NCBI GenBank assembly: GCA_000181795.3
Contig: CM012954.1
Location: forward strand, 13,047,618-13,111,617
Length of the DNA: 64,000 nucleotides
Direction: 5' to 3'
Source of the DNA: Trichinella spiralis
Taxonomy: Eukaryota; Nematoda; Enoplea; Trichinellida; Trichinellidae
Under the pieces are notes generated by a model that was not told where the DNA came from, did no database searches, and worked only from the letters and a program-made list of their open reading frames with translations. The position numbers and the translations under genes were made by a program. Below are positions 36,877 to 41,004 of this stretch, piece by piece. Every line of letters begins with the position of its first letter. Position 1 is the stretch's first letter.

Positions 36877-38676
36877 ATGAGGACTGCAAATGGGACAGTT
36901 GATCTTCAAAATATTGCTGATGTTGATGATCAAATGATAGTGAAATGTTTAAATTTTTTTCGCGTTGAAGGATTCTTTGATGCAGAACGTACATTTGTAC
37001 GAGAATTAAGAAATATTGGTCGTTCGGCTGCCGTAGATGCATATTTGCAACGTGTTGGGTGCACTGTAAATGATAATCAGCTTGCGACCGTGAAGTCATG
37101 GAATCATTGGATTGAAGAATATGATTATTTTTTTCAATACACGAAATCCAAAGTTGATGCACTGTGTGAATTGAGTCTGCTTAATTTTCCACTATTTACA
37201 CAACTGTACATTCAATTATTGAAAGCTGGGAAAATGAAATTGGCCAGCAGATTTTACGATGAGTTTCACAGTGTGCAGAAGGAGTCCATGCAAGAATACA
37301 CCAAGCAACTTGGCTGGATTCACTCGTCCGAACAGTTGGCTGACGACTGGTTGATACAGATTTTGGAAGAGCACAACTTTGTATTATGTTTGTGCTTGGC
37401 TTGTAAGTCGGCATTGAACGAGTTGATGGAGAAACTGCCAACAATTAAAGACATTATCGAGAGTAAGATTCAAATTGAATGCCATGGCGAGGTTTGTCGT
37501 AGTGAAGAACAAGTGGAGCAAATTAGCGGATATTTGCTTGGTGAAGCACCGAGACAGTTGAACCAGATTCCAATTCTAGCCAGTTGTTTTGATCATGGTG
37601 GTAATGATGTGCCATCTTGGGACAGAATTCCATTTCCAATTTCGCGTGACGAAGTGATACTCACAAATAGTGACGAAATCAAGAAGATCTGTTTGAATGA
37701 TGCAAGACCGTCAGTTTGCTTCTATACGGTACTGAATCCACGAGTTGCTGTTTCCTCGATGGTTGTCAGTTCGGATTCGACTTTACTGTGCGTTGGAAAT
37801 TTGGACTGCAGTGTAGAGGTGTTTTCATTGAGCAAAGATTTAATGGAAATGTTAAAACCTGCATCGCAGTTACCGCATACTGAAGACGATCTCGATCCAA
37901 GTTCAATATTTGATAGCAGTTCAGCTCAATCAAAATTCAGCTTGTTTGGTCATTCGAGTCCTGTTTACGGAGTTAGCTTCAATCGGAGCGGTGAATTTGT
38001 ATTGTCATGTTGTTTGAATGGAGAAATAATATTGTGGAATTTGTTAACAAGAACTCGAATTGCCGACTATCGTATGCAGATGTTGAAAGGATTGGACGTC
38101 AAGTTTGGTCCTTATGATGGCTATTTCGTGGTCTCTGATTATCACAGCGGTGGCGCGTTGATGTGGAGCATGGAATGCGAAACACCAGTTCGTGCATTTA
38201 TTGGTCACTTGTCCACCGTCAATTGCGTTGCTTTTCATCCAAATTCTAATTATATTGCCACTGGTTCAAACGACCGAACTGTTCGTCTGTGGGATTTGCT
38301 TGATGGCAAATGCGTCAGGCTGTTCACTGGTCACCAGGACGCAATACAGTCGTTGTATTTTTCCGACGATGGCCATGTTTTGGCATCCGGCGGTCTGAGT
38401 GGTCAAGTAATGTTGTGGGATGTGGCCATGGCAGCTCGATTGGAAGGTTTTAAGCATTCTGATCGCGGCGTCAGTGGATTAGCCATTTCCAGAGATGGGT
38501 CAACTGTCGCTTGGGGCGGAGCAGATCAAAAAGTGATGCTACGTTCGATCGGTGACAATCACAAATCTGAAATGCCATCTGTTCTCACATACCGAACCAA
38601 ATCTGCGCCGGTGCAGCATTTACATTTCACTCAGGAAAATGAATTGATCGGCTTTGGCGGATTTTGCCGTGACTAA
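36877..38676 (+). CDS. taf5: TFIID subunit TAF5 (NTD2 + WD40), single exon
   Basis: TAF5 is a scaffold subunit of TFIID (and of SAGA-type complexes in some species). One exon, 599 aa, shorter than the roughly 800 aa human protein. Residues about 15-50 form a LisH-like helix pair (VKCLNFFRVEGFFDAERTF). Residues about 80-215 form the TAF5 NTD2 helical domain (WIEEYDYFFQYTKSKV, FPLFTQLYIQLL, ASRFYDEFH). The rest is a WD40 propeller from about residue 285, with repeats such as LFGHSSPVYGVSF, FIGHLSTVNCVAFHPNSNY ending RTVRLWDLLDGKC, and FTGHQDAIQSLYFSDDGHV. The long Ser/Pro-rich N-terminal extension of human TAF5 is missing. The first Met is used because an acceptor-like AG directly precedes it. 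TAF6 lies 2.5 kb downstream on the same strand. Confidence 0.93.
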   Translation: MRTANGTVDLQNIADVDDQMIVKCLNFFRVEGFFDAERTFVRELRNIGRSAAVDAYLQRVGCTVNDNQLATVKSWNHWIEEYDYFFQYTKSKVDALCELSLLNFPLFTQLYIQLLKAGKMKLASRFYDEFHSVQKESMQEYTKQLGWIHSSEQLADDWLIQILEEHNFVLCLCLACKSALNELMEKLPTIKDIIESKIQIECHGEVCRSEEQVEQISGYLLGEAPRQLNQIPILASCFDHGGNDVPSWDRIPFPISRDEVILTNSDEIKKICLNDARPSVCFYTVLNPRVAVSSMVVSSDSTLLCVGNLDCSVEVFSLSKDLMEMLKPASQLPHTEDDLDPSSIFDSSSAQSKFSLFGHSSPVYGVSFNRSGEFVLSCCLNGEIILWNLLTRTRIADYRMQMLKGLDVKFGPYDGYFVVSDYHSGGALMWSMECETPVRAFIGHLSTVNCVAFHPNSNYIATGSNDRTVRLWDLLDGKCVRLFTGHQDAIQSLYFSDDGHVLASGGLSGQVMLWDVAMAARLEGFKHSDRGVSGLAISRDGSTVAWGGADQKVMLRSIGDNHKSEMPSVLTYRTKSAPVQHLHFTQENELIGFGGFCRD

Positions 38677-39850: not shown

Positions 39851-41004
39851 ATGTCGAAAAACAAGAAGGTGATTTTTCTACGTCTCTATAATTTTTGTAA
39901 TATTTTGTTGTGGTTTTAGGATGATATACCGAAAACTGAGAAATGGGATGGAAATGCTACTCGATATGCAATTGATGATGCAATTCGGAAGGTAATGGAC
40001 ATTATTTACAATTGATTTTCTGCATTGTATGCATGATTTTCTAGAATTATTTTTTAAAGCTAATATTGTATGTCAGTAATTTGTTTTTGGAAATAATTTG
40101 TTACATGCAGGTCACTATGAAAATTTGAAGTTAGATGTAAAGAATTTTTAAAAAATGATTTATTTTATTAAATGAAATTTTAGTATTTACATGATATCTG
40201 GTATTAAAGAACATGTTTGATTTATTTTAAAGTGAAAGCTAATGCATTTGATAACCAAGCTGAAATCGAACTAAGGTGTTTTATTTAGATAGTAATAGAA
40301 AAGTTTGGTTATTCAGAAGACCATCGTGTAGTGGATTGTCGATTACTTCTTGCAACACTGGCTGTTGTTTTAGCATTATTTGCTTGTGTATGGGATTGGT
40401 TTTATCCATTTCCTCTCTCCAGAGACGTGCTCATATATTGCAGCGTATCATATCCTTTCAATATTTCTTAATTGGTTGTTTTATTTTTATTTAATTTGTA
40501 GAGTAATTGGTTGTACAATTTAAAATTAATTTTGTTAAGTTAATAATTTAATGCATTTTTAATATTTTAATTATATTGATATATTTAATGAACGTATTGT
40601 TTGTATTTTCCTTAACTTCATATGTTTTTACGTACTTCGTGGTTAACGGCCTGTTGCAGTTGTATACATGGTTCGTTGAACGTGGCATTTTTCTCGTAGC
40701 AGTGGATAAATCATCCGATAATCCGAAAAAGAAAGTCTTGTGGATATTTAGTTCATCTATGAAAAGGTAATTTTATATTTTAGAATATTTTAATTTGTGG
40801 ATATTGCTTATTCGTTTTTTAAGATTTGATCACAAATACACGTTAGAGATCAAGTGCAAATCTGCTGGAGTTAGTAACCATGGTAAGCTGACCAAATCTG
40901 TCGCTAGTTGGATTTACGAGGATGGTCAGATTTCGTTGCCGCATTTGCTTGATGACGTGCTGAAATTGCACAATTCTTTGTTAGATGAACGAAAAGTGAA
41001 ATAG
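39851..41004 (+). CDS. spcs2: Signal peptidase complex subunit 2 (SPC25)
   Basis: Non-catalytic ER membrane subunit of the signal peptidase, which links the enzyme to the translocon. Five exons: 39851-39868, 39920-39991, 40289-40449, 40632-40766, 40824-41004, giving 188 aa, a little shorter than the roughly 226 aa human protein. Family blocks include KWDGNATRYAIDDAIRK, FACVWDWFYPFPLSRDVLIYC, YTWFVERGIFLVA, SSSMKRFDHKYTLEI and TKSVASWIYEDG. Two membrane helices at about residues 48-70 and 77-99 form the family's cytosol-facing hairpin. The intron between exons 3 and 4 has no GT-AG solution and fits a U12-type AT-AC intron; the resulting CSVSYFVVNGLLQLYTW matches the conserved second helix. TAF6 begins only 192 bp after the stop codon. 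Confidence 0.93.
40450..40631 (+). other. U12-type AT-AC intron in SPCS2
   Basis: The intron starts ATATCCTTT (40450-40458), the textbook U12-type AT-AC 5' splice site. It contains TTCCTTAAC (40608-40616), the textbook U12 branch point, about 16 nt before the terminal AC (40630-40631). Its length is 182 nt. Splicing joins ...GTATC to GTACTTC and restores an unbroken helix (CSVSYFVVNG) that aligns with the family. Without it the frame stops at an early TAA in the intron. No AG acceptor occurs between that stop and the conserved TYFVVNG codons. Confidence 0.9.

Follow-up and report, generated by a model that had tools for sequence, protein, structure and literature searches.

An AT-AC intron of the U12 type in the SPCS2 gene of Trichinella spiralis, and minor-spliceosome snRNA genes in the genome of this nematode

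The SPCS2 gene and its third intron

The window analysed here, the whole 64,000-nucleotide stretch of Trichinella spiralis DNA, carries on its forward strand the gene for the signal-peptidase subunit SPCS2 (SPC25) at 39851..41004. Its five joined exons translate without an internal stop into 188 amino acids, a product that scores 133 bits against the Pfam family SPC25 (PF06703; cut-off 24.3) and whose residues 3-188 align with human SPCS2 (7p2p_C, from the signal peptidase complex structure 7p2p) at an E-value of 2.5e-40; a protein search with the same product returned a single homologue, P0001. Introns 1, 2 and 4 are GT-AG and intron 3 is AT-AC. Upstream on the same strand, at 36877..38676, lies a single-exon open frame of 599 amino acids, which from its translation, read by eye, is a putative WD40-repeat protein, perhaps TAF5. 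The gene model and the elements of the third intron are as follows, with the basis for each in brackets.

39851..39868, + strand: exon 1, with the start ATG (joined-exon translation)
39869..39919, + strand: intron 1, GT-AG, 51 nt (joined-exon translation)
39920..39991, + strand: exon 2 (joined-exon translation)
39992..40288, + strand: intron 2, GT-AG, 297 nt (joined-exon translation)
40289..40449, + strand: exon 3, its last codon split after two bases, ...GTA TC (sequence, translation, alignment to human SPCS2)
40450..40631, + strand: intron 3, U12-type AT-AC, 182 nt (motifs, translation, junction ranking, published EST ES570647.1)
40450..40459, + strand: U12-type 5' splice site ATATCCTTTC (sequence, published row, positions +4..+11 complementary to U6atac and to the 5' end of U11)
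40608..40616, + strand: U12-type branch-site consensus TTCCTTAAC, exact (sequence, 8-nt complementarity of TTTCCTTA to U12 TAAGGAAA)
40630..40631, + strand: 3' splice site AC, 15 nt past the branch motif (sequence)
40445..40659, + strand: GT...AG pair that keeps the frame and overlaps intron 3, a possible cryptic U2-type alternative (junction scan)
40632..40766, + strand: exon 4, beginning G, TAC TTC GTG (translation, alignment to human SPCS2)
40767..40823, + strand: intron 4, GT-AG, 57 nt (joined-exon translation)
40824..41004, + strand: exon 5, including the stop TAG (joined-exon translation)

The third of the four introns reads ATATCCTTTC...TATTTTCCTTAACTTCATATGTTTTTAC, terminates in TTTTTAC and lies between exon flanks that end in GTATC and begin with GTACTTC, and we regard it as almost certainly a U12-type AT-AC spliceosomal intron. 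Its first eight letters (40450..40457) match the U12-type 5' consensus ATATCCTT exactly, and the branch motif is likewise free of mismatches. The final A of that motif stands at 40615, with the last intron base 16 nt further, which is the spacing given in the preliminary description; that description had also placed the intron correctly to the base. On both strands of the window RTATCCTT occurs twice and TTCCTTAAC once, and the only pair they form is that at 40450 and 40608.

The coding frame agrees with these boundaries. In translation, a retained intron brings a stop codon within eight codons of its start, and its removal forms the codon TC/G and restores VS/YFVV, the human counterpart of which is ISYFVM. 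Across the junction the residues S-Y-F-V-V-N-G align without a gap with S-Y-F-V-M-M-G of 7p2p_C, bearing out the earlier statement that splicing here restores a conserved part of the protein; we take the S-Y-F-V stretch to be the second membrane helix of SPCS2. Candidate junctions were ranked by combining donors at 40300-40519 with acceptors up to 40759 (GT/GC-AG and AT-AC/AG), keeping those in frame and free of stops, and scoring the products against P0001; 40450..40631 came first of 119, with a score of 415.5. The AT-AC motifs might nevertheless be coincidental and an ordinary U2-type GT-AG intron at 40445..40659 be used instead, a junction that keeps the frame, introduces no stop and ranks highest among the GT/GC-AG pairs (366.5 against P0001). 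Its 177-residue product, however, lacks 11 residues of the conserved stretch and scores 97.4 bits against the Pfam SPC25 model, compared with 133 bits for the product of the AT-AC junction. The uniqueness of the motif pair in the window argues against coincidence and a published EST with the AT-AC junction (PMC2846911) argues against 40445..40659, and we consider its use very improbable.

The AT-AC intron is genuine but already known, having been in print since 2010, and the novelty that the preliminary description implied does not hold. Table 1 of Bartschat and Samuelsson (PMC2846911) gives an SPC25 intron from the T. spiralis EST ES570647.1 that lies in the same gene, has the same length of 182 nt, is flanked by ATC and GTA, and whose first 10 and last 38 letters as printed are those of SPCS2 intron 3; the two do not differ in any of the compared parts, the table printing the intron ends without the middle. 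Both scoring methods used there class the intron as U12, and splicing between 40449 and 40632 is reported to be supported by this EST as published. The same table holds three T. spiralis AT-AC introns in all, and each of the three is found in the assembly with equal flanks, printed ends and lengths (SPCS2 and the loci L022 and L071 described below), in line with the earlier remark that retention of the minor-spliceosome snRNPs had been reported for Trichinella.

AT-AC introns elsewhere in the genome

A genome-wide pattern scan for ATATCCTTTC gave 85 sites, compared with 70 for the reversed control pattern, and the flanks of 65 of the 85 were examined; the resulting census is confined to introns of the AT-AC class that carry C at +10. 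An exact TTCCTTAAC follows within about 3.4 kb downstream at 10 of the 65 sites, and within about 300 nt at 8. At the shorter range the mean over all 1260 rearrangements of the motif's letters is 0.15 and the highest count for any other rearrangement is 4 (full enumeration, 65 sites); at the longer range one other rearrangement ties at 10, and the control is weak there. In a random-shuffle control at 200 nt one draw equalled the count of the true motif (7), presumably being the motif itself by chance. Allowing one mismatch in TTCCTTAAC within 400 nt gained 2 of the other 55 sites.

All ten introns with exact motifs end in AC, 10-22 nt past the branch motif, and in each the frame is open across the junction in the translated stretch. 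Nine of them lie outside SPCS2, and the host gene can be named for eight.

L022: RRM protein, the SR splicing factor of the table in PMC2846911; AT-AC intron of 2095 nt
L071: eIF2A; AT-AC intron of 94 nt (Pfam eIF2A, 96.5 bits)
L038: HSBP1; AT-AC intron of 157 nt (Pfam, 63.3 bits)
L013: ABHD18; AT-AC intron of 80 nt (Pfam, 41.3 bits)
L050: voltage-gated calcium channel, closest to N- and P/Q-type; AT-AC intron of 1658 nt (PDB match)
L039: voltage-gated calcium channel, closest to T-type; AT-AC intron of 256 nt (PDB match)
L062 and L064: NAT10, two copies; AT-AC intron of 189 nt in each
L065, around 501-740: gene without a name; AT-AC intron of 180 nt, exact motifs, open frame

Seven of the ten lie outside the three AT-AC rows of PMC2846911, and later databases may list them. 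The calcium channel names come from PDB matches, Pfam Ion_trans being below its cut-off at both loci; voltage-gated channel genes are named among minor-intron hosts in PMC6865273. For the ABHD18 intron a length of 78 nt was rejected, as it breaks the reading frame and lowers the Pfam score from 41.3 to 27 bits. A Pfam search with the L065 gene gave no match and a further search for its identity nothing convincing. The two NAT10-like copies stand about 850 kb apart (at about 8.214 Mb and 9.064 Mb of C2) and are 98.4% identical over 3.7 kb, and the pair is either a recent duplication that carried the minor intron along or an artefact of the assembly.

snRNAs and proteins of the minor spliceosome

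At gathering scores the Rfam models gave no match in the 64-kb window. Run on the genome, where only the best candidates were scored and counts therefore refer to the matches listed, they gave one listed match over the cut-off each for U12 (C1:6116390-6116528, 64.7 bits, cut-off 53), U11 (C1:15173241-15173369, 56.5 bits, cut-off 39) and U6atac (C1:17319504-17319616, 59.5 bits, cut-off 33), the last with five weak matches listed below it. The one listed match for U4atac (C2:3956608-3956707, 46.9 bits, E 1.5e-5) falls below the cut-off of 53. Prokaryote controls, searched at a loose E <= 1, gave matches to U12 in 3 of 14, U6atac in 8 of 14, U4atac in 1 of 14 and U11 in 1 of 14, none of them over the cut-off.

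The letters by which U11, U12 and U6atac would recognise the intron are intact. Intron positions +4..+11 (TCCTTTCA) have an 8-nt complement in the U11 5' end TGAAAGGG, with one G-U pair, and another in the U6atac stretch TGAAAGGA, while the branch-site letters TTTCCTTA have one of 8 nt in U12 TAAGGAAA. In the U4atac candidate TCCTTGT, GGGGAG and TGCTAAC are exact complements of U6atac ACAAGGA, CTCCCC and GTTAGCA. The canonical pairing did not form in an unconstrained co-fold of the two RNAs, in which U4atac was mostly self-folded; a duplex fold of -43.1 kcal/mol paired the first two stretches but not the third, again without the canonical three-part pairing.

The preliminary description had expected from the intron that minor-spliceosome snRNPs are kept, and of the four snRNAs it named U11, U12 and U6atac came up over their cut-offs and U4atac as a sub-threshold candidate. 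It had also proposed a search for minor-spliceosome proteins. Family searches of the genome for PDCD7 (PF16021) and SCNM1 (PF15803) gave no match, the controls being silent as well and thus offering no positive control, and the single match to zf-U11-48K (PF05253), a family for which the controls rang once, in Sulfolobus, was rejected as U11-48K, the protein being the tRNA methyltransferase TRM13.

The U4atac score under the cut-off, and protein searches that gave no component specific to the minor spliceosome, are what one would see if the intron were a relic, persisting while the minor spliceosome of the Trichinella lineage decays. We judge such decay highly unlikely, in view of the over-cut-off matches listed for U11, U12 and U6atac with their recognition letters intact, the exact motifs and open frames of ten introns, and the three complements of U6atac, of six to seven letters, that U4atac retains. 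That the organism retains its minor spliceosome is supported by the three snRNAs over their Rfam cut-offs together with the sub-threshold U4atac.

In the minor pathway the U11/U12 di-snRNP binds both the 5' splice site and the branch site, U6atac then succeeds U11 at the 5' splice site, and excision releases the intron in lariat form. Because both the U12 motifs and the snRNA genes are present, SPCS2 intron 3 is probably removed by this machinery and not by the major spliceosome. U11/U12 would recognise its 5' site and branch site, U6atac, within the U4atac/U6atac/U5 tri-snRNP, would then displace U11 from the 5' site. The 182 nt would be excised as a lariat branched at an A of TTCCTTAAC, joining the codon parts TC and G into the conserved S-Y-F-V stretch of the signal-peptidase subunit.

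A few AT-AC introns of the U2 type are known in animals, and removal of the SPCS2 intron by the major spliceosome is conceivable on that precedent, the more so as Table 2 of PMC2846911 counts 5 "other AT-AC introns" for T. spiralis. Against it stand the two diagnostic U12 elements, which match their consensus without a mismatch, the agreement of both methods of PMC2846911 in calling the intron U12, and the U12-class snRNA genes of the genome, and we give it almost no credence.

The U11 gene itself (locus L011, 1501-1629, minus strand) departs from the Rfam consensus at its 5' end, reading TGAAAGGG where the consensus starts AAAAAGGG, and the differing letters fit a C at +10 and an A at +11 of the intron. 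C at +10 is found in all ten AT-AC introns, every one of which was picked by a pattern requiring it, and likewise in the three of PMC2846911, which are independent of the present selection. A at +11 is found in 7 of the 10 introns and in 17 of the 55 other sites, a slight difference at one of two positions examined (Fisher p 0.03). One possibility, which we think rather unlikely, is that AT-AC introns and the 5' end of U11 have adapted to each other over +4..+11 (TCCTTTCA) in the Trichinella lineage. If so, one set of eight letters would be read by both U11 and U6atac, and the minor introns that survive would be an unusually stereotyped AT-AC set.

Comparison with human and C. elegans

According to PMC3958305 and PMC11039992 the third intron of human SPCS2 is also U12-type. 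The two introns agree in gene, in ordinal position and in U12 class, the three features on which they were compared. That both third introns are U12-type suggests common descent, and ordinal position and class together suggest that the SPCS2 intron is ancient, dating from an ancestor shared with vertebrates. Both papers describe the use of cryptic major sites in human SPCS2 when RNPC3 is defective, and PMC3958305 describes cryptic U2-type sites activated there by mis-splicing of the U12 intron. The in-frame GT-AG pair at 40445..40659, which overlaps the minor intron of Trichinella, may be compared with those human sites.

In C. elegans the orthologous gene, Y37D8A.10, has lost the intron, and U12 splicing is absent (PMC2846911); the preliminary description had likewise stated that C. 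elegans lacks the minor spliceosome and U12 introns. The same paper records U12-class snRNAs for T. spiralis, citing a 2008 inventory. A pan-eukaryotic survey of 2023 (PMC10639083) draws on T. spiralis and T. nativa when analysing minor introns and elsewhere groups nematodes with lineages that have lost the minor system, terming the clade broadly minor-intron-poor. Since U12 introns and snRNA genes are present in Trichinella and absent from C. elegans, a loss falls inside Nematoda, as was argued in 2010 (PMC2846911). The present analysis supplies the coordinates of the snRNA genes and of ten AT-AC introns and leaves the established view unchanged; it confirms in a contiguous assembly that U12 introns and U12-class snRNA genes, which C. 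elegans lacks, are retained in a nematode lineage that branched off early.
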